Shown here: positions 3,748-43,478 of the stretch, piece by piece
How the letters are laid out: each line of letters starts with the position of its first letter
Position numbering within the stretch: position 1 is the first letter of the stretch
Source: Dysgonamonadaceae bacterium
GTDB lineage: Bacteria; Bacteroidota; Bacteroidia; Bacteroidales; Azobacteroidaceae
NCBI GenBank assembly: GCA_031269685.1
Contig: JAISYU010000068.1
Span: 1-43,585, forward strand
Direction of reading: 5' to 3'
Length of the DNA stretch: 43,585 nucleotides
Program-made: the position numbers and the translations under genes
Notes under the pieces: model-generated
Told to the model about the DNA's origin: nothing
Database searches by the model: none
What the model saw: only the letters and a program-made list of their open reading frames with translations

Positions 3748-4053
3748 GTCCGTTGAGTTTCCGTATTTGTCAATATTTTTTTGCGATGCGTCGCTCATAT
3801 TTCTGAAAGGGGCTTTACAGGCTTTAAGGACAAGTTTTTTTCTTATCTCTTGACACTTCACAGCCTGCTATCTTGCGCGAATAGACATCAGTAAGAAGGA
3901 ATAAATATGACCTTTAATCTTGTTTACTTGATGATGTCCAATTTTTTTAGATCTGTACTGTAATACTTGACTGCAATTTCGGCTTATTTTATAGCAGATA
4001 GCGACAAAACAGCATTTTTTAGCAAAAGATATTGTTTGTTTAAAAAAAGTACG
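3748..4053. other. Intergenic region with no recognised gene
   Basis: About 300 bases between the rpoD terminator and the next promoter. Short minus-strand open frames cross it (3604-3861 and 3868-4143) but have no recognisable motif, no supporting start site and AT-rich, low-complexity composition. I see no RNA gene. It may contain decayed sequence. Confidence 0.4.
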
Positions 4054-4061
4054 TATCTTTG
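4032..4061 (+). promoter_or_regulatory. Bacteroidetes-type promoter for the repeat leader / FISUMP gene
   Basis: The -7 box TATCTTTG is at 4054-4061 and a TTG (-33) at 4032-4034, spacing 19. Predicted transcription begins near 4067-4069, almost on the ATG at 4070. The following ~430 bases would therefore be a long leader of the FISUMP gene, or a leaderless small gene. Confidence 0.6.
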
Positions 4062-4069
4062 TCACCGCT

Positions 4070-4453
4070 ATGGAGACAAGAAACATATATAGTAGCAAAA
4101 AGAGGATGCCGAATACGGAAAAGTACTTGATAACGTCAGGCATTGTCGGTTCTAAGTCAGAGCAGGATTTGGATATGTCGAATATTTCGTTAACACAAAC
4201 CTATTATTCTACTATATATTACGAGCGCGTACACATGTTTGCGGGGATATTCGTACAAAATATAGCGGAGCCCCTACAAAGTGTAGTGATGTCCCTACAA
4301 AATGTAGTGATGCCCCTACAAAATGTAGCGATGTCCCTACAAAATGTAGCGATGCCCCTACAAAGTGTAGCGATGTCCCTACAAAACGTAGCGATGCCTC
4401 TACAAAACGTAGCGATGCCCCTGCAAAACGTAGTGACCCCTACAAAGTATTAA
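4070..4453 (+). CDS. Possible small repeat protein, or untranslated leader with open frame
   Basis: An open frame of 127 residues starts at an ATG only about 2-3 bases from the predicted transcription start. Its second half is a heptad-like repeat of the type (S/P)LQNVAM, produced by a 21-bp DNA repeat whose length is a multiple of three. The frame ends in TAA straight after the repeats, 41 bases before the FISUMP start. No signal peptide, known domain or convincing ribosome site is visible. The open frame may simply follow from the repeat period, in which case the transcript is a structured 5' leader. I cannot decide between these; the coding reading is weak. Confidence 0.25.
   Translation: METRNIYSSKKRMPNTEKYLITSGIVGSKSEQDLDMSNISLTQTYYSTIYYERVHMFAGIFVQNIAEPLQSVVMSLQNVVMPLQNVAMSLQNVAMPLQSVAMSLQNVAMPLQNVAMPLQNVVTPTKY
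4253..4453 (+). repeat. 21-bp tandem repeat array of small hairpins (~10 units)
   Basis: Units begin at 4253, 4274, 4295, 4316, 4337, 4358, 4379, 4400 and 4421, each exactly 21 bases apart, with a final partial unit at 4440. The core of most units is the inverted repeat CTACA-AA(A/G)-TGTAG; later units carry CTAC-AAAAC-GTAG. The linker alternates between GATGTCC and GATGCCC in the first seven units, giving a 42-bp higher-order period. It sits between a promoter and the FISUMP gene. Confidence 0.9.
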
Positions 4454-21472: not shown

Positions 21473-24400
21473 ATGAAACAGCGGTTTATTTTCTCTGCAA
21501 TGGCGCTCGTCTGCCTCATATCCTGCACATCGTCGAAGAATACAAGCGGAACGAGATGGTATCATGCGTTCAATACGAGATACAATATCTATTTCAACGC
21601 AAACACGGCTTATCAGGAGGCTGCAAAGACCCAAATCGAACAGTTCACTGCAATGGAGAATTATTCGGATTATCTCCTCTTTCATCCCGTCTCTGCGACC
21701 GGTAAAGAGAAAAGTACAACAGGAGGTCCATTCAACAGACCTATCGAAAAGTCCGTCAAGGCGATTAAACTGCACTCTATCCAAACGCGCCCTGAAAGAG
21801 ATAACAGTAAACGAAGCAGCATTGATTATAAAGCCTTTATGAAACTCAAGGAATACAACCCATTCCTTCATAACGCATGGATGATGATGGCTCGATCACA
21901 GTTTTTCAATGGCGATTTCCTTGAGTCGGCGAGTACCTTTTCATATATCGCGAACCTCTATGACACCCAACCGGAGATCTCAATCCCCGCCAAAATATGG
22001 AAAGCACGCTGTTATAACGAAATGGGATGGTTCTACGATGCGGAGAATATACTCACCAAGATCGACAGTGTTTCATTGTCCAGGAAGCAGGCTGACCTGT
22101 ACGCGACTGTATATGCTGACTATCTGATAAAGCAAAAGCGCTACGAAGAATCCGTACCATTCCTTATATCATCAATCAAAGCGGAGAAAAATAAACTGCA
22201 GCGTAACCGTGAGAAATACCTGCTCGGACAGATTTACGCCTCGTCAAACAATAAAGCCATGGCTTATAAAACCTTCGGCGAGGTTTCGGGGGCAATCGTT
22301 CCATATATCCTTCAACTAAACTCTCGAATCAGGCAAACAGAAGTATTTCCCGATAATAACATAACGAAGATCAGTAAACGACTGCAGCGAATGGCGCGAA
22401 GCGGGAAGAATAAGGAATATTTGGACATGGTATATTACGCACTTGGTAACGTTTACATGACTGTGCCGGATACTTTGAAGGCTTTGGAAAACTACGAGAA
22501 GGGTGTAAAAGAGAGTAAGCGAGGCGGGATAGATAAAGCGATGAACCAAATACAGTTAGGCGATATTTATTTCACTCAGCGCAAATATGTCAACGCGCAA
22601 CCTAACTACTCCGAAGCGCTTGCACAACTCAAAAAAGAGGACAGGGATTATCCCCGCGTCTCCAAACGATCTGAGGTACTTGATGCACTTGTTATCCACG
22701 TCCAGGCAGTGGAATTGCAGGACAGTCTGCAACGTCTCTCACGGATGACGGAGGAAGAACGCCTCGCTGTGGTAAATAAAATCATAGCCGATCTCATTAA
22801 GAAGGAGAAAGAAGAACAGGAAAAGGCTGACATGGAAGAATATCAGTCCCAGCGCCAATCCATGCAATCCGAACGGCAATCACAACTTAGACAGAAGCAA
22901 CCTCCAACCGTAGCGCCACCTTCCGACGGCGAGTTCTATTTCTATAACCAGCAGGCAGTTACGACCGGTAAAAATGCTTTCCGGCAAAAATGGGGACAGC
23001 GGAAACTTGAAGATGATTGGCGGCGACGTAACAAGATTAAAGCCTTTGATGATCTTGGTGAACAGGAAGAATTGCCTGCCGATTCAATAACCGGACAACA
23101 GGAAGGCGATGAATTGTTGTCGCAGGATTCAATTCCGGCAGTCACCGAAGACAAGGTTAGCGAACTGTCCGAAGACCCGCACGACCCCAATTTCTACCTG
23201 CAACAGATACCGTTAACCGAAGAAGATATTGAGGCTTCAAACCTCATCATCCAGGATGGACTCTACAACATGGGCGTCATATATAAGGATATTCTTGAAG
23301 ACTACTCTCTGGCGATCGAAACCCTTGATTCGCTCAATATCCGGTTCCCCGAAAACGAAACGAAGTTGGACGCCTATCATCACATATACCTTATCTACTG
23401 GAAACTTGGAGATATGGCAATGGCTGACATTTACAAACAGAAAATCCGCGCCGAATTTCCCGACAGCGAACTTGCAATAGCAATGGCTGACCCCGACTAC
23501 GAATATAACCAGAAGATGATGAACGTAATACAGGACTCGTTATACAGTCAGACTTTTGCCGCCTATGAAGAAGGAAATATCTCGCAGATCCGCCTGAACT
23601 ACGATACATTTTCCGCAAAATACACACAATCTGCTCTTATGCCGAAATTCATGTTTCTAAACGCCCTGACATACGCCCGACCTGAGGAAACGGATACCTT
23701 CAAAATCTTCCTCAAACAGTTAATCGACAAATTCCCCAATGAAGATGTTTCATTGCTTGCCGCCGACATGATGAAAGGTTTCCAGCGCGGGCTAATCCTT
23801 GCTTCCTCAGGCGATAACATGATGACGCGCGGCAGCATATTCAACCTGCGGTTCGGCGCTTCGCTCGATTCTTTAGGAGTAGACACAACGCTCATCTTCA
23901 CCGCCGAAATCGACACTCCACACAAACTTCTGCTCCTTTATCCGAAAGGCAGTGTCAATGAAAACCTGCTACTGTTCAACGTTGCCGGCTTTAACTTCGG
24001 AAATTTCCAGGTAAACGACTTTGAACTCACGCTTGCCGAGGCAGGCAATGTCGGAATGTTAAGGATCGACGGATTCGGTTCCATGGAACAGGTTATGCAG
24101 TACTACGATATGATAGTCGGCGAAAACGGATACATTGACAGGATAGAAGAAGCGGTAATAATCGTGCCAATTTCGGGCGCTAACTACGAGACATTGATGA
24201 AGGGTAAGAGTCTGGAAGAGTACATGAACTTCTTCGAGGAACACTTTGAAGGAGGCAACGAAGACCTGATTGACAAATGGAGATTAAAGGAGGCGGAAGA
24301 AAAAGCGGCAACGGAAGGCGAAGAGCCCGCGACGGAAAACATTGACCCTGCCGCCGAACCCGACGCATCCGCGCTCAAAGCAGACACTGTAATATCCCTC

Positions 24401-24958
24401 GAACTACCGCTCATTGTGCCTCGGCAAAGAGACTCCACATCACTTAAAAGCGACACATTACCCGAAGTATCTTCCATATTGGACGACGCTTACAGTAACG
24501 CATCCGACAAAGTCGACGCCCTGACGGCAAAATATAACGAGATAGCCGACGACCCGATTCGCGGAATCTTTGGACTCTTCAAGCGTAAGCCACGCAACGC
24601 GATAGACGAATATGCCGCCGAACAGGAGAAGATAGAGAAAGAACGTAAAAAGCAGGCTAACAAAGAACTGCACGAAAAACAAAAGCAAGACCTCATTCAA
24701 CAGCGCCTCGAAGAGAAAGAGCGCGAACAACAGGAAAAAGCAGCCGGCGACTCAATCAACGCCATCAAGAAACAGGAAAAAGTAGCCGCCAAAGCAGCGG
24801 AACTTGCAAAAAAGCAGGAGATAAAGAACAAAAAACGGGAAAAAGAAGCCCGCATCAAAGCCAAACAAGCCGCCGCCAGGCAGAGAAAAGCCGACATAAA
24901 GGCAAAAGCGAAGCAGCGGGCGGCAGCAAAGAAAAAGGCGGTCAAAGGCAAACCTTAG
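21473..24958 (+). CDS. porW: T9SS lipoprotein PorW/SprE (TPR protein)
   Basis: This 1161-residue protein has a lipoprotein signal (lipobox LISC, Cys18) followed by the family signature TRWYHAFNTRYNIYFNANTA. TPR-like helical repeats fill about residues 95-420 (for example NGDFLESASTFSYIANLYDT and TLKALENYEKGVKESKRGGI) and again about 580-760. A charged, Gln-rich linker lies near residues 440-500. The last ~120 residues are strongly Lys/Glu/Ala-rich and probably form a long coiled coil. In gliding and secreting Bacteroidota, SprE/PorW is needed for type IX secretion and links the translocon to the rest of the machinery. Its place directly after sprA supports the call. A terminator follows at 25071-25102. 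Confidence 0.88.
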   Translation: MKQRFIFSAMALVCLISCTSSKNTSGTRWYHAFNTRYNIYFNANTAYQEAAKTQIEQFTAMENYSDYLLFHPVSATGKEKSTTGGPFNRPIEKSVKAIKLHSIQTRPERDNSKRSSIDYKAFMKLKEYNPFLHNAWMMMARSQFFNGDFLESASTFSYIANLYDTQPEISIPAKIWKARCYNEMGWFYDAENILTKIDSVSLSRKQADLYATVYADYLIKQKRYEESVPFLISSIKAEKNKLQRNREKYLLGQIYASSNNKAMAYKTFGEVSGAIVPYILQLNSRIRQTEVFPDNNITKISKRLQRMARSGKNKEYLDMVYYALGNVYMTVPDTLKALENYEKGVKESKRGGIDKAMNQIQLGDIYFTQRKYVNAQPNYSEALAQLKKEDRDYPRVSKRSEVLDALVIHVQAVELQDSLQRLSRMTEEERLAVVNKIIADLIKKEKEEQEKADMEEYQSQRQSMQSERQSQLRQKQPPTVAPPSDGEFYFYNQQAVTTGKNAFRQKWGQRKLEDDWRRRNKIKAFDDLGEQEELPADSITGQQEGDELLSQDSIPAVTEDKVSELSEDPHDPNFYLQQIPLTEEDIEASNLIIQDGLYNMGVIYKDILEDYSLAIETLDSLNIRFPENETKLDAYHHIYLIYWKLGDMAMADIYKQKIRAEFPDSELAIAMADPDYEYNQKMMNVIQDSLYSQTFAAYEEGNISQIRLNYDTFSAKYTQSALMPKFMFLNALTYARPEETDTFKIFLKQLIDKFPNEDVSLLAADMMKGFQRGLILASSGDNMMTRGSIFNLRFGASLDSLGVDTTLIFTAEIDTPHKLLLLYPKGSVNENLLLFNVAGFNFGNFQVNDFELTLAEAGNVGMLRIDGFGSMEQVMQYYDMIVGENGYIDRIEEAVIIVPISGANYETLMKGKSLEEYMNFFEEHFEGGNEDLIDKWRLKEAEEKAATEGEEPATENIDPAAEPDASALKADTVISLELPLIVPRQRDSTSLKSDTLPEVSSILDDAYSNASDKVDALTAKYNEIADDPIRGIFGLFKRKPRNAIDEYAAEQEKIEKERKKQANKELHEKQKQDLIQQRLEEKEREQQEKAAGDSINAIKKQEKVAAKAAELAKKQEIKNKKREKEARIKAKQAAARQRKADIKAKAKQRAAAKKKAVKGKP

Positions 24959-24980
24959 TATCTATAATCCTCAAAACAAG

Positions 24981-25068
24981 GGCAATAAGAAACATATTTT
25001 AGAAAATATAATACCGGAAGCAGGGGCAAGAGGAAACAATTTTTAGAAGTTATAATATATAATGAAGG
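24981..25068. repeat. Imperfect direct repeat, period 44
   Basis: A segment beginning GGCAATAAGAAACATATTTT (24981) recurs 44 bases later as GGCAAGAGGAAACAATTTTT (25025), with similar AT-rich continuation. It lies between the porW stop and its terminator. The same 44-base spacing occurs in the repeats at 25637-25765, though the sequences differ. Confidence 0.5.
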
Positions 25069-25070
25069 AG

Positions 25071-25102
25071 GGCGGCAGGCGGAAGTCTGCTGCTTTCTTT
25101 TT
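25071..25102 (+). terminator. Intrinsic terminator after porW
   Basis: GGCGGCAG (25071-25078) and CTGCTGCT (25087-25094) form an 8-bp stem with two G-T pairs, followed by TTCTTTTT. It lies 113 bases after the porW stop codon. Confidence 0.6.
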
Positions 25103-25322
25103 GCCGTTTATCGGTCTGTTTTGATAAAATAAAACGGTAAAATCGACCATTTTTGCCCGTGCAGCATGAAGGAGCTCGTGCTGACAGGACAGCTGTCTCC
25201 GGCTGACAGGCGTCCTGTCTCCGGCTGACAGGCGTCCTGGCTACGGCTAACAGGCGTCCTGTCTCCGGCTGCCAGCCGTCCTGTCAGCACTAGCTCCTGC
25301 AAAAATTTACCGCTAACAACCC
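25101..25322. repeat. Hairpin-array module, copy 1
   Basis: The module has a conserved left block (25101-25182), an 85-nt variable core (25183-25267) and a conserved right block (25268-25322). The core runs in 22-nt units starting with GCT at 25180, 25202, 25224 and 25246; most contain the hairpin GACAGG-CGT-CCTGTC. The outer arms AGGAGCTCGTGCT (left) and AGCACTAGCTCCT (right) are complementary except one base, so the whole module could fold as a stem capped by small hairpins. The 22-nt period is not a multiple of three, which argues against a coding role. Confidence 0.85.
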
Positions 25323-25329
25323 ACAAAAA

Positions 25330-25406
25330 AGCGGCGGAACGTATCAAAATTTACCGTCAATACCCCCCAAAAAGCGGTGGAATGTATCAAAATTTACTCC
25401 CAATAA
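25330..25406. repeat. 43-nt repeat units between the hairpin modules
   Basis: Two units start with GCGG(C/T)GGAA(C/T)GTATCA at 25331 and 25374 (period 43) and continue AAATTTAC. They are related to the 44-nt units on the other side of copy 2. Confidence 0.65.
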
Positions 25407-25407
25407 C

Positions 25408-25630
25408 CTTACCTTTACCGGCCTGTTTTGATGAAATAAAACGGTAAAACCGACCATTTTTGCCCGTGCAGCATGAAGGAGCTCGTGCTACGGGTCGCAG
25501 ACCCTACGGCTACCGGTCGCAGACCCTACGGCTACCGGTCATCGACCCTAGGGCTACGGGTCGTCGACCCTAGTGCTGCCAGCCGTCCTGGCAGCACTAG
25601 CTCCTGCAAAAATTTACCGCTAACAACCCC
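25408..25630. repeat. Hairpin-array module, copy 2
   Basis: This repeats copy 1 at an offset of exactly 307 bases. Left blocks differ at 2 of 67 compared bases (25116-25182 against 25423-25489) and right blocks at 1 of 55. The 85-nt core (25490-25574) is different: its 22-nt units (GCT at 25487, 25509, 25531, 25553) carry hairpins such as GGGTC-GCA-GACCC and GGGTC-GTC-GACCC. The closing unit GCTGCCAG-CCGTC-CTGGCAGC is a perfect 8-bp hairpin. Confidence 0.85.
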
Positions 25631-25636
25631 AAAAAA

Positions 25637-25768
25637 GCATCGGAATTCATCAAAAATTAACCTCTAATCACTAAAAAGTAGCAGCGAAATACATCAAAAA
25701 TTAACCTATAACCACTAAAAAGTAGCAGCGGAATGTATCAAAATTAACCACTAATCACCATAAAAGCA
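25637..25768. repeat. 44-nt tandem repeats downstream of copy 2
   Basis: Units start at 25637, 25681 and 25725 (period 44) with consensus GCAGCGGAATGTATCA, then AAAAATTAACC and an A-rich end. The last partial unit at 25766 merges into the rpoC terminator hairpin. Confidence 0.75.
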
Positions 25769-25797
25769 ACAGCGGGATGCATCACTGCACCCCGCTG
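25763..25797 (-). terminator. Intrinsic terminator after rpoC
   Basis: Read on the minus strand, CAGCGGG (25791-25797) and CCCGCTG (25770-25776) form a stem around a loop that contains its own TGCA repeats; TTGCTTTT follows. It lies about 70 bases after the rpoC stop. Confidence 0.65.
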
Positions 25798-25865
25798 CCT
25801 GTCCTATTATTAATAATTGAAATGAATGGAAAAGTCTCTTTATATTATCTCTGTCATCCTTTAAT

Positions 25866-28800
25866 CTATAACCTCTTTAGCCTGCTTTTGGGCTGGGTCT
25901 TAGACTGGATCAGCGCCCCTACAACGCTACGTTGCTGGTTGGGAGCGGCTTGCGCCCTCTCCATCTCCGCCTTGTTGCCTACAATGAGGCGGCTATATTC
26001 CTTCAAGCCTGTACCCGACGGGATGAGATGTCCGCATATAACGTTCTCCTTCATACCTTCAAGCCGGTCAACTTTACCCTTGATCGCTGCCTCGTTCAAC
26101 ACTTTCGTGGTCTCCTGGAAGGAGGCGGCAGACATGAAACTGCTGGTTTGCAGGGCGGCGCGCGTGATTCCTTGCAGGATCTGGTTAGCGGTAGCAGGAA
26201 CAGCGTCACGGGTTTCAACTAACTTCATGTCGCGTCGTTTCAGTACCGAGTTCTCGTCCCTCAGTTTGCGGGCTGTGACAATCTGACCCGGCTTCAGGTT
26301 TGGAGAATCACCCGATGCGGTAACAACTTTCTTTCCCCACAGGCGATCATTCTCTTCCGCAACCTCAAGCTTGTCAACAAGTTGCTGCTCAAGGAAACGG
26401 GAGTCTCCAGGTTCCACAATCTCAACCTTGCGCATCATCTGGCGAACTATAACCTCAAAGTGCTTGTCGTTAATCTTAACTCCCTGCAAACGATAGACGT
26501 CCTGAACCTCATTTACAATGTATTCCTGAACGGAAGTAGGACCACTGATAGCCAGGATGTCGGCAGGTGTGATTGCACCGTCCGACAAGGGCGTCCCTGC
26601 CTTCACGTAATCATTTTCCTGAACAAGTATCTGCTTGGAGAACGGGACAAGGTAGATCTTGAACTCACCGGACTTTGACGTTATGATAACCTCGCGGTTG
26701 CCGCGCTTGACTTTGCCGAACGAGACCTCGCCGTCTATCTCCGACACAACCGCAGGATTAGACGGGTTGCGGGCTTCAAACAGTTCCGTCACGCGGGGAA
26801 GACCACCCGTAATGTCGCCCGTCTTACCAACTGCGCGAGGAATTTTTACGAGTACTTCACCAAGTTGCACCTCATCACCCTCTTCCTTCACAACGTGAGC
26901 GCTGAGCGGGAGAACGTAAGTTTTTGCAACCAAACCGTCACTGTCGACAATCTGTGCAGACGGTACTTTGTTACGGTCACGCGATTCAATGATGATCTTC
27001 TCACGCAGCCCCGTATTGTCGTCGTACTCATCTTTGTAAGTGATGTTCTCTATCAGGTTCTCAAATTTTACCGTACCTTGAACCTCGGATACTATAACGG
27101 CGTTGAAAGGATCCCACTCGATGATTATGTCGCCTTTACTGACCGTGTCGCCCGACTTGAAATAGAGTTTCGAAGCGTAAGGAATATTGTGCGACGTGAG
27201 TACAATCTTCGTGTTCGGATCTATTATACGAAGTTCCGACAGGCGACTGATAACGATTTTATAAGGTTTCCCCGATTCGTCGGTCAGGTCTATTGTCCTC
27301 AGCTCGTCTATCTCAATGATGCCGTCGTATTTAGATGTAACATTGTTCTCTGCCGTTATGTTGGATGCAATACCGCCCACGTGGAAGGTACGCAAAGTAA
27401 GCTGTGTACCCGGCTCGCCGATGGATTGCGCGGCGATAACGCCTACCGCTTCGCCTTTCTGAACCATCCGCCCCGTCGAGAGGTTGCGACCATAGCATTT
27501 TGCACAGACACCTTTCTTCGATTCGCATGTCAACACCGAACGGATTTCCACACGCTCAATGGGTGAATGTTCGATTGCTTCCGCAATGTTTTCGGTAATC
27601 TCTTCACCGGAATGGATAATGATCTCTCCCGTGATCGGATGCTGGATGTCATGAACCGAGACCCGACCAAGTATGCGTTCGTATAAAGTAGCAACGGTTT
27701 CTTCGTTATTCTTAAGTTCGGTCGCTACAAGTCCGCGCAATGTGCCGCAGTCTTCTTCATTAATGATCACGTCGTGCGATACATCAACAAGACGGCGGGT
27801 AAGATAACCCGCATCGGCAGTCTTCAACGCCGTGTCGGCAAGTCCTTTACGCGCACCGTGAGTCGAAATGAAATACTCCAACACTGAAAGACCTTCCTTA
27901 AAGTTTGAAAGGACAGGGTTCTCAATTGTCTGACCACCTTCCGCTCCACTCTTTTGAGGCTTGTTCATCAGACCTCGCATACCGGACAACTGGCGAATCT
28001 GCTCCTTTGAACCGCGAGCCCCAGAGTCAAGCATCATATATACAGGATTGAATCCCTGATCATCAGCGCTTAACTGTTTCATCAACACGTCGGCAAGGTT
28101 GTTATTTACCTTAGTCCAGACGTCGATAATCTGGTTATAACGTTCGTTGTAGGTGATGAAACCCATATTGTAGTTGCTCAGGATGTCTTCTACTTCTTCA
28201 TAACCCTTTGCTACTAACTGCTCCTTTTCTTTCGGAATAATGATGTTCTCGAGGTTGAAGGACAGTCCTCCCCTGAAAGCCATCGTGTATCCAAGATTCT
28301 TGATGTCGTCAAGGAATCGTGCCGTACGAGCGACTCCACAGGTCTTGATCACAATTCCGATAATGTCACGAAGTGACTTCTTTGACAGGATTACGTTGAT
28401 ATAACCTACTTCCTCCGGTACAAAATCGTTTACCATAACACGACCAACAGATGTTTCCATCAGTTGTTTTACAGGCTTGCCATCAATCATGTCATCGACA
28501 ATGATCTGCACCTTAGCGTGAATGTCTACTCGACCTTCATTATAAGCAATGATGGCTTCTTCCGGTCCGTAGAATTTCAATCCTTCGCCGCGGGCGCCGT
28601 CACGCAGTTTGGTGATGTAATACAAACCGAGTACCATGTCCTGCGAGGGTACGGTAATAGGTGCACCGTTAGCCGGATTGAGGATATTATGCGAAGCAAG
28701 CATAAGCATTTGTGCTTCGAGGATTGCTTCGTTGCCAAGCGGAAGATGAACTGCCATCTGGTCTCCGTCGAAATCGGCGTTGAATGCCGTACAGGAAAGC

Positions 28801-30182
28801 GGGTGAAGTTGTATTGCTTTGCCTTCGATCATCTTTGGCTGGAAAGCCTGGATACCAAGCCGGTGCAGGGTTGGAGCACGGTTAAGCAGTACAGGATGTC
28901 CTTTCATTACGTACTCAAGAATGTCCCAAACGACGGGCTCTTTGCGGTCTACTATTTTCTTTGCCGATTTTACGGTTTTTACTATGCCGCGATCTATTAG
29001 TTTACGTATTATAAATGGTTTGTAAAGTTCTGCCGCCATGTTTTTAGGGATACCACACTCGTGCATTTTGAGTTCAGGACCAACAACAATTACCGAGCGG
29101 GCTGAATAGTCTACACGTTTACCGAGCAGGTTTTGGCGGAAACGTCCCTGTTTGCCTTTCAAACTGTCGGACAGAGATTTTAGCGGTCGGTTAGCATCTG
29201 TTTTGACAGCACTCAACTTGCGTGAATTGTCGAGCAAGGAATCAACCGATTCTTGAAGCATACGCTTCTCGTTTCTCAGAATAACTTCAGGTGCTTTGAT
29301 TTCAATCAACCGTTTCAAGCGGTTATTACGGATAATTACGCGACGGTAAAGATCATTGAGATCGGACGTCGCAAAGCGCCCTCCATCGAGGGGAACGAGT
29401 GGACGTAGCTCCGGTGGAATCACAGGAACTATCTTTACAATCATCCATTCCGGACGGTTGCGTTCTTTAGACTGGCGGAACGATTCGACTACTTGCAGGC
29501 GTTTGAGAGCCTCCTGTTTACGCTGCTGTGACGAGTCATTCGACGCTTTGTGTCGCAGTTCGTAAGAGAGATTGTCCAGATCAAGTCTTTCAAGCAGGCT
29601 GTGAATTGCCTCTGCTCCCATCTTTGCTATGAACTTATTAGGATCACCGTCATCAAGTAATTGGTTTTCTTTCGGCAGGCGTTCCATTATTTCGAGGTAT
29701 TCATTTTCCTCGAGCAGGTCGTATTTTTCATGGTCTGTAATCGGGCCTGGCTGAATAACGACATAACGTTCGTAATAGATGACCGAATCAAGTTTCTTTG
29801 TAGGCAATCCGAGTAGATACCCTATTTTGTTGGGTAACGAACGGAAATACCAGATATGCGCTACCGGTACGACAAGATTGATATGCCCCATACGCTCGCG
29901 GCGAACTTTCTTTTCAGTTACTTCCACCCCACAACGATCGCAGACAATACCTTTGTAACGGATACGCTTGTACTTGCCGCAATGACATTCGTAATCACGA
30001 CAGGGACCAAAGATGCGCTCGCTGAACAGACCATCATGTTCTGGCTTGTAAGTCCGATAGTTGATTGTTTCAGGCTTTGTTACCTCACCGCTTGACATCC
30101 CAAGGATCTCATCGGGCGAGGCAAGTCCAATCGTTATTTTTGAAAAACTGGTTTTTACTTTAGTTTCTTTTCTGAAAGCCAT
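25866..30182 (-). CDS. rpoC: RNA polymerase beta' subunit
   Basis: The largest RNA polymerase subunit carries the active-site Asp triad in NADFDGD (residues 468-474, Asp470/472/474 by the chosen start). The N-terminal zinc-binding cysteines are visible (Cys66, Cys68, Cys81, Cys84 in [10 protein letters not shown] and CDRCGVEV), as is a second cysteine cluster ([11 protein letters not shown]). I chose the ATG at 30182 ([10 protein letters not shown]), which yields 1438 residues, over the TTG two codons upstream. Length and motifs look complete. It is usually directly after rpoB, but here a two-gene cassette of about 1.1 kb separates them. The start lies 43 bases after the methyltransferase pseudogene, following an A-rich leader. 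A hairpin terminator follows the gene. Confidence 0.97.
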
Positions 30183-30225
30183 AATCAAAAGATTTTATTT
30201 TATTTTATTTTTTTTATCAACAACA

Positions 30226-38362: not shown

Positions 38363-39550
38363 TTATTCCACGATTTCCGTAATTTGACCGGAACCTACGG
38401 TACGACCTCCTTCACGGATAGCAAAACGCAAGCCTTCGCTGCATGCTACTGGATAGATGAGATCAACCTTGATTTCGAGGTTATCGCCAGGCATAACCAT
38501 TTCGGTTCCTTCCGGCAGTGTGATTTCGCCCGTAACGTCAAGTGTACGGATATAGAACTGCGGACGGTATTTGTTGTGGAAGGGAGTATGGCGACCGCCT
38601 TCTTCTTTTTTCAGGATATAAACTGAAGCTTTGAAGGAGGTGTGAGGTTTAACTTTACCCGGGTGAGTAATAACCATACCGCGTTTCACTTCATCTTTGT
38701 CGACACCGCGGAGGAGCAGACCTACGTTATCACCTGCCTGACCTTCGTCAAGAATTTTGCGGAACATTTCCACGCCGGTAACGACTGATTTTTTGCCTTC
38801 GGAACCGAGTCCGATAATCTGCACTTCCTCGCTTGTTTTGATGATACCGGTTTCGATACGACCTGTTGCTACGGTACCGCGACCGGTAATTGAGAATACG
38901 TCTTCGACGGGCATCAGGAAAGGTTTATCGATGTCTCTTGGGGGCAGGTCGATCCATGTATCGACAGCATCCATTAGTTCGACGACTTTTTCTTCCCATT
39001 TAGGGTCACCGTTGAGGGCGCCGAGAGCGGAGCCTTGGATGACAGGGGTGCTTGTTCCGTCAAATTCATAAAAATCGAGTAGTTCGCGCATTTCCATTTC
39101 GACTAATTCGAGCATTTCGGGGTCATCAACGATATCCACTTTGTTCATAAAGACAACAAGTTTTGGAACGTTTACCTGACGTGCGAGCAGGATATGTTCA
39201 CGAGTCTGGGGCATAGGACCGTCTGTAGCGGCTACAACGATGATAGCGCCGTCCATTTGGGCAGCACCTGTAACCATGTTTTTTACGTAGTCGGCGTGAC
39301 CCGGGCAATCTACATGTGCGTAGTGGCGGTTAGCCGTTTCGTATTCGACATGCGCGGTGTTAATAGTAATACCGCGTTCTTTTTCTTCCGGTGCGTTGTC
39401 GATGGAATCAAACGAACGAACTTCGGAAAGACCTCTTTTCGCCAGAACGGTAGTGATAGCTGCCGTCAGCGTGGTTTTACCATGGTCGACGTGACCAATA
39501 GTACCGATGTTAACGTGGGGTTTTGATCGGTTAAAATGTTCTTTTGCCAT
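38363..39550 (-). CDS. tuf: Translation elongation factor Tu
   Basis: This 395-residue GTPase delivers aminoacyl-tRNA to the ribosome. G1 is GHVDHGKT (residues 19-26), followed by [13 protein letters not shown] (switch I), DCPGH (G3), NKVD (G4) and GSAL (G5). Domains 2 and 3 follow, ending in [13 protein letters not shown]. It lies 104 bases after tRNA-Thr(GGU), matching the E. coli thrU-tyrU-glyT-thrT-tufB order. Confidence 0.97.
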
Positions 39551-43324: not shown

Positions 43325-43478
43325 AGTGAAGAGTGAAGAACTAAAAGTGAAGAGTTAGGAAATAACATCGCCCTCCTGCAAAATAACCCCGCCCTCCTTT
43401 AAAATAGCATTGCCCCCCTCCTTAAAGTCGTTAAAGCCCTTAAAGCCCTTAAAGTCCTTAAAAGAAACCACCCCGCCC
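43325..43478. repeat. Low-complexity direct repeats
   Basis: A run of AGTGAAGAG-type repeats (43325-43358) includes the same 14-mer GAGTGAAGAACTAA found at 13361. Next come CGCCCTCC-NNNAAAATA units about 21-25 bases apart (43368-43430). A 10-base direct repeat, TTAAAGCCC-type, occurs three to four times (43422-43462). No open frame of note covers them. Confidence 0.6.

Follow-up and report, generated by a model that had tools for sequence, protein, structure and literature searches.

The usual view of bacterial intergenic minisatellites is that a single family expands where it stands. The closest described system to the repeats studied here is the BrickBuilt MITE of P. gingivalis, a species that its name places in the same order as our source genome; we regard the present modules as akin to BrickBuilt and to PgRS, with no membership implied. 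In the part of its description drawn on here, BrickBuilt consists of a leader, 23-nt tandem repeats and a tail, with long predicted stem-loops, and is found in 19 intergenic copies bearing IS5-like terminal inverted repeats; P. gingivalis also carries 22-nt direct repeats and MITEPgRS/464 with 41-nt repeats (PMC4596501). A second paper, in the portion available, mentions BrickBuilt without more on short repeats (PMC5771137), and literature searches for short-period arrays of this kind yielded nothing closer.

We have studied a pair of modules in a stretch of 43,585 nt (the window), located between a porW-like gene (21473-24958, + strand) and rpoC (25866-30188, − strand), names that we take from a reading of the translations. 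The two genes are convergent around the module pair.

Layout of the modules and likeness to known repeats

The modules are described on the + strand. A pattern scan places a terminator-like hairpin with a T-run at 25064-25101 (+), downstream of the porW-like gene and just upstream of module 1; the fold of 25060-25112 has a free energy of −25.7 kcal/mol (z −4.67). Module 1 comprises a left flank (25107-25182), a core of 22-nt units GCTGACAGGCGTCCTGTCTCCG and variants (25183-25267), a tail-most unit with the right flank (25268-25322) and, from repeat finding, AT-rich tail repeats of 43-44 nt (25302-25408). Module 2, delimited by comparison with module 1, has its left flank at 25414-25489, a core of 22-nt units GCTACCGGTCGCAGACCCTACG and variants at 25490-25574, its tail-most unit and right flank at 25575-25629, and AT-rich 44-nt tail repeats, again from repeat finding, at 25636-25784. 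A second terminator-like hairpin found by the pattern scan (25768-25799, − strand) lies downstream of rpoC and faces the modules; the surrounding 44 nt fold with −26.4 kcal/mol.

An earlier note on this DNA had placed the two modules at an offset of exactly 307 bp, with flanks differing at 3 of 122 bases, and a recount confirmed this. The left block (25116-25182) differs from its +307 copy at 2 of 67 bases and the right block (25268-25322) at 1 of 55, while the wider left flank (25107-25182) has 4 differences in 76. The cores were correctly said to share little sequence: 46 of 85 bases differ and 39 match (25183-25267 against +307). Aligned in register, the 90-nt cores are identical at 44 positions; gapped alignment gives 60 matches, which lies within the range of 500 shuffles (mean 55, maximum 64), and so the cores have no detectable similarity beyond composition and register. 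The 22-nt period was borne out by Tandem Repeats Finder, with 4.2 copies in core 1 (25193-25285) and 3.9 in core 2 (25487-25572). Both cores are thus minisatellites in the usual sense of head-to-tail units of about 10-60 nt.

Searching the source genome (a draft of 2.23 Mb in 125 contigs, 93% complete) revealed a third copy on contig C53, at about 39300-39490 on the minus strand. It has a block related to the left flank of module 1 (81%) and matches its tail-most unit and right flank at 48 of 50 bases. Apart from module 1, a search of the genome at E ≤ 0.01 met its AT-rich tail repeats after module 2 and, as a piece of 37 nt, at C53, and nowhere else. Since the similarity at C53 continues upstream through the terminator-like hairpin (79% over 133 nt, C53:39563-39695), the shared block extends over about 350 bp. 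Its plan is a terminator-like hairpin (one per locus), an AT-rich left flank, a short-period palindromic minisatellite and a right flank with AT-rich 43-44-nt repeats; its ends are not sharp enough to define an insertion site. The module has been duplicated, but in place of the many copies that would have supported the earlier reading there are three. As the genome is a draft of many contigs, further copies are possibly missing or collapsed.

How far does this arrangement resemble BrickBuilt? Both are intergenic, with a conserved leader and tail, a varying number of units and predicted terminators often adjoining, as far as the BrickBuilt description used here extends (PMC4596501). The 22-nt units, close to the 23 nt of BrickBuilt, are tandem without spacers and lie between convergent genes, and leader and tail are conserved in three copies at two loci. 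However, BrickBuilt is described there as one 23-nt family, whereas unrelated cores stand here under the same flanks, core 2 being unlike cores 1 and 3, and the sampled genome holds some 40 unit families (PMC4596501). Periods of 22 and 41 nt, as in the 22-nt repeats and PgRS of P. gingivalis, occur here too, and the repetitive flanks of PgRS recall the 43-44-nt tail repeats, both likened by description (same partial source). The occurrence of the arrangement (leader, tandem repeats, tail) at two loci that are not linked would suit a MITE mobilized by the transposase of an insertion sequence, the mechanism proposed for BrickBuilt. Against this, the flanks of copy 1 contain no inverted match beyond the inner arms, the BrickBuilt terminal repeat GAGACCTTTGCA is no commoner in the window than expected by chance (with at most 2 mismatches, 3 matches observed and 3.34 expected), and there are just three copies, two of them in tandem. 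We have rejected a MITE with terminal repeats on the first two grounds, and regard such mobilization in general as improbable.

REP/BIME-RAYT elements, in the part of the description used, are likewise intergenic palindromes of 20-40 bp, often clustered (PMC3733652). Such palindromes end on one side in an unpaired tag, GTAG or CGTC. Core 2 has GTAG, a possible counterpart, at six minus-strand places, several beside a stem; in core 1 there is one GTAG, and the four CGTC fall within loop and stem. The arrays here differ in being head-to-tail at constant period, with unit sequences that change between loci (PMC3733652, same part). The REP/RAYT assignment was rejected, since the Y1 transposase (PF01797) has no match in the source genome (93% complete); 17 of the 38 genomes of the genus have one.

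The interior of copy 2

The three copies allow the order of events to be considered. The left flanks of copies 1 and 2 are identical at 62 of 64 bases, those of copies 1 and 3 at 52 and those of copies 2 and 3 at 54. The core at C53 nevertheless resembles that of copy 1, matching it at 62 of 66 aligned bases with one unit fewer. The right flank hardly differs among the three copies and does not discriminate. By left flank, then, copies 1 and 2 belong together, but by core copies 1 and 3 do; replacement of the interior of copy 2 is the simplest history for this conflict, and it probably took place. The suggestion of conserved flanks with a swapped core is thereby supported, the third copy showing the swap and other loci a similar pattern (see below).

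Our preferred reading, to which we give a probability of about 0.6, is that the modules are hairpin-forming minisatellites in a duplicated intergenic block, and that turnover at the DNA level put new units into the interior of copy 2. The module would have been duplicated first, and the interior units of copy 2 replaced afterwards with both flanks and the tail-most unit kept. Hairpin-forming units would promote slippage and template switching during replication; slippage or unequal exchange would then carry new units across the interior, with edge units lagging behind. No specific host function would be needed. Neither a donor nor an intermediate for core 2 was seen: the source assembly at E ≤ 10 holds, outside core 2, only pieces of 13-17 nt, and the exact pattern is absent from the viral contigs. 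Copy 2 has kept its core length to the base, as the offset of exactly 307 shows, which under free slippage would be a coincidence.

The tail-most unit bears on the template-switching step. In copies 1 and 3 it is an imperfect palindrome of three pairs, a mismatch at the fourth and then four or five pairs. In copy 2, together with the preceding bases, it forms a palindrome with 13-bp arms, all contiguously paired, around the CCGTC loop common to copies 1 and 3; the fold of 25572-25605 has −20.1 kcal/mol (z −4.26). Both arms of copy 2 differ from those of copies 1 and 3 toward better pairing. If copies 1 and 3 are taken as the older state, the right arm would have gained a base pairing with the left, and the outer bases of the left arm would have changed to pair with the right. 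Hairpin stems can be created and repaired by template switching, and in such quasipalindrome correction, as given in the part of the account used, a single DNA event changes both stem arms without selection on RNA (PMC8794818). The changes in the tail-most unit of copy 2 fit this process and the likeness holds for that unit; the published cases, in the same part, concern stems of RNA genes rather than replacement of a whole minisatellite core (PMC8794818). It is one footprint, not proof, and the step would rest on it together with the pattern of the array class rather than on observed mutations.

Could the arrangement have arisen in assembly? The genome is in 125 contigs, and some of these end in CA runs next to copies of a leader described below. 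However, the differences between the copies, which affect core, flank and unit number, are structured, and the two modules are at least about 18 kb away from both ends of the window. We therefore consider an artefact of the draft very improbable.

Related sequences outside the source genome were few. A 171-nt module query matched 37 other genomes of the genus only over 15-25 nt (E 0.06-1) and 117 other genomes of the phylum nowhere at E ≤ 0.001. The 76-nt left flank found matches of 27-34 nt in 2 of 57 relatives, with E just under 0.001. A pattern of the exact outer arms with a gap of 75-104 nt, which does match all three known copies, was absent from collections of genome contigs and of viral contigs; the copy-1 core pattern was likewise absent from viral contigs, and the module had no match among plasmids. 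In RpoC the closest named genomes, with 82-84% identity in the best segment, are drafts of Dysgonamonadaceae and Bacteroidales; some of these, we presume, may be insect-gut material.

Hairpins, folding and the question of a structured RNA

Hairpins had been noted in most units, and they are present, although they exceed chance only moderately (shuffles of the consensus unit give p = 0.025 in copy 1, p = 0.373 in copy 2). Four single units that were folded gave z −1.23, −1.89, −1.54 and 0.00. Each module as a whole folds most favourably into a single long hairpin, of −83.5 kcal/mol for copy 1 and −69.4 kcal/mol for copy 2, against −42.7 and −46.3 kcal/mol for the row of hairpins obtained by limiting pairs to a 24-nt span. 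The outer arms AGGAGCTCGTGCT / AGCACTAGCTCCT are there as described and form the best inverted match of the copy-1 flanks, scoring 24 (500 shuffles, mean 15.9, maximum 26).

Are these modules a structured RNA? On this reading transcription would run past porW, and the hairpins would have a regulatory or stabilizing role. The predicted folds are strong (z −8.06 and −4.70), though tandem palindromes alone yield such folds, and a related terminator block also precedes the C53 copy. The strands, however, fold alike, the reverse strand slightly better than the forward (−88.9 and −72.5 against −83.5 and −69.4 kcal/mol), and the modules are enclosed by two inward-facing terminator-like hairpins, 25064-25101 (+) and 25768-25799 (−), because of which they are probably little transcribed. 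An effect on the convergent transcription between porW and rpoC is possible.

The argument for a selected structure had been that the stem arms of the two cores changed together on both sides. This does not amount to covariation, because the comparison is between two unrelated palindromic units and not within one lineage of units. We counted changes within arrays, 66 in all, with and without a clear palindrome and excluding periods 12 and 18. Among the stem cells 2094 were unchanged, 329 changed on one side, 12 compensated and 16 broken on both sides. The 12 doubly changed pairs compare with 7.4 expected by permutation, and the claim that structure is kept by compensatory change is not sustained. 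Stem mismatches were G-T in 92 cases against A-C in 68, which leans toward RNA pairing but is not significant (two-sided binomial p 0.069). A scan of 24900-25900 gave no Rfam match at gathering score; the best scores (23.5 against 58.7 bits, and 18 against 80.4) both fell to the left of the cores. With the Rfam scan, strand comparison and pair counts all without support, we have rejected a structured RNA and think it improbable; the modules most likely reflect repeat-driven turnover of DNA, not a new RNA. Paired stem changes between arrays of this kind need not imply a selected RNA.

Short-period arrays across the genome

Tandem Repeats Finder was applied, with rows merged, to 41 stretches of the source genome totalling 574,066 bases (about 26%). 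This gave 69 arrays, about 120 per Mb, six of them in the window. Fifty have periods of 21-23 nt (38 at 21, 4 at 22 and 8 at 23) and 12 of 41-44 nt; six of the seven others are multiples of a 9-nt TTTAAAG unit. The modules thus belong to a population of minisatellites found across the genome, with periods of 21-23 nt (and 41-44 nt) and a tendency of the units to form hairpins. Loose clustering placed the units in 40 families, where shuffled units were joined in 3 of 595 pairs. With one representative of each of 39 families, and periods 12, 18, 27 and 36 set aside here and in the flank comparison below, the hairpin score averaged z 0.87 over shuffles (Stouffer 5.4, or 4.9 with dinucleotide-preserving shuffles); the combined values are approximate, as families share ancestry. 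The array tests were post hoc on the sample. Seven of the 39 families have hairpins at p < 0.05 singly, and the hairpin content of the class is modestly above chance.

Array density was highest in the source genome among the samples. The genus sample had 13 arrays in 281 kb (5 at 21-23 nt) and the order sample 4 in 266 kb (1); the nine closest rpoC loci had 3 in 94 kb (2), and 71 other rpoC loci 11 in 713 kb (10), so that the 21-23 peak is also seen at other Bacteroidales rpoC loci. Other Bacteroidia gave 19 unmerged rows in 400 kb, 6 of them at 21-23, and E. coli K-12 one array in 200 kb, of period 33. The mean dyad z was 2.08 over the 11 arrays of the 71-locus sample, against 1.16 over 66 arrays of the source genome.

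Unlike cores under shared flanks are also found elsewhere. Comparison of sequence within 150 nt of the arrays gave 33 flank-sharing pairs among 1891, 8 with like and 25 with unlike cores; the latter is an upper figure, since the pairs include neighbours in one locus (the module locus among them) and weak gene matches and are not independent. The arrays at L177:4991 and L182:114 have tail-most unit and tail in common and differ in their interior units, of type GGGTGCATCCC in L177 and GGATTTAAATCC in L182 and L175:11274, all with period 21. A recurring leader is present at all three loci, its sharing at L177 being partial, since it reaches 69% over 158 nt and ends about 120 nt short of the array. 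L177 retains one old-type unit at its tail end, as copy 2 does. Retention of edge units is expected when slippage or unequal exchange homogenizes interiors.

The recurring leader is found in the window at 3974-4200, with TTG...TACGTATCTTTG, which we take to be a Bacteroidetes-type promoter motif, and a short ORF (M..T..IY....RMPNTEKY...). Behind it at 4254-4446 (+), in an open frame, lies a palindromic array of 9.3 copies of a 21-nt unit CTACAAAATGTAGCGATGCCC, of the same class as the modules with a different flank. One spurious 25-nt match apart, the 574-kb sample contains 15 further matches to the leader, some of them limited to the promoter part; they precede various 21-nt arrays or a CA run, and the reading frame of some copies continues into heptapeptide repeats. 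The sample has nine CA/TG runs of 8 to 32 units, at the leader copies L032, L035, L037, L042, L048, L177 and L190 and also at L046 and L186; those in L032, L035, L037 and L186 stand at a contig end. Arrays of 9-nt units (CTTTAAAGA and variants) occur beside 21-nt arrays in the window (43420-43462) and at L039:16754, L049:3394-3710 and L171:15062-15326.

We considered two losses that might permit such arrays. Loss of mismatch repair was rejected as a cause, as MutS is present (901 bits). SbcCD is a hairpin nuclease, and no SbcD exceeded the cut-off in the source genome (best 21.8 against 77.65 bits). Yet 30 of 38 genus genomes, the source genome included, lack it and only 8 have it over cut-off, while the genus sample has fewer arrays; loss of SbcCD would thus be at most permissive.

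Slippage by itself does not account for the narrow periods, for which helical phasing is a possible reason. The arrays might be phased DNA-binding or nucleoid elements, with palindromes two helical turns apart presenting one face of the DNA to a structure-tolerant protein (an HU-like or gyrase-like one would be a candidate), so as to insulate convergent genes or absorb supercoiling. The periods of 21-23 nt in 50 of 69 arrays and 41-44 nt in 12, near two and four helical turns, agree with this, as does the placement of the modules between convergent genes. Some 40 unit families, however, leave no shared sequence for such a protein, and the orientation of flanking genes, taken from simple ORFs, is not special over 66 arrays (periods 12 and 18 aside): 31 codirectional, 11 convergent, 8 divergent, 13 at a contig edge and 3 within a spanning ORF. 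We judge this reading unlikely.

A further proposal, which we also think unlikely, is a structure-templated repeat system, in which an interior could be exchanged for unrelated sequence provided that the 21-23-nt register and the hairpin are kept, through a dedicated or strongly biased hairpin-processing replication. Were it true, structure rather than sequence would be inherited at each locus, and one genome-wide process would act under different flank types (the module, and the promoter-like leader at 4020-4200). Unrelated cores under the same flanks, with tight periods of 21-23 and 41-44, pose a testable question of how sequence changes while register is kept, and the array density of this genome suits it to measuring turnover in population reads.

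Coding had been considered unlikely from the 22-nt period. A non-coding nature is likely for the 22-nt arrays, those of both modules lying in no listed ORF of the window, but the C53 copy stands within an open frame of at least 120 aa (L172:19344). With arrays masked, 3 of 66 are inside a spanning ORF; when they are left unmasked, open frames of at least 120 aa enclose 22 of 69 completely, so that coding is not dismissible for part of the class. Such frames hold 17 of the 44 arrays of period 21 or 42 and 4 of the 18 of period 22, 23, 41, 43 or 44. Some 21-nt arrays may be translated.

Turning to relatives, we compared the stretch from rpoC to the first ORF at 12 loci. Nine (L052-L057, L059, L061, L063) had no array just after rpoC. 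At the other three, ORFs reduced the stretch to 0-17 bases, and the reading was extended: at L058 a gene follows 17 bases past rpoC, at L062 the first listed array comes only after 3.5 kb, and L060 has two 21-nt arrays, one of 2.5 copies at the rpoC stop and one of 10.6 copies about 1.1 kb beyond, with units other than those of the modules. Short arrays of 2.4-2.9 copies each lie near rpoC at L111 (6285, 7408), L091 (7071) and L123 (7315). Since these are found at L060, L111, L091 and L123, arrays of this class do occur near rpoC elsewhere, with other sequences. Other Bacteroidales also have short palindromic arrays no more than about 5 kb from rpoC (L081:10867, L088:10879, L119:9012 and L126:9027), with units of 21-22 nt except at L088 (34 nt).

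Two further loci may be recorded. At L174:4825-5038 (reverse strand) the units alternate between CGGTACACCCGGAAAG and CGGTACACCGAAAAAG, and the latter with its preceding bases forms a palindrome with 10-base arms, a multi-base change resembling template switching. At L060:7290-7511, in a Tannerella draft, a 21-nt array with unit GAAATAATTGTTTCTGCGCCG stands just before a gene starting MKDYLP, similar to the starts of the genes behind the arrays at L174 and L188 of the source genome (MANKDYIP, MRSKDYIP); the placement is the same and the core different, in another genus.
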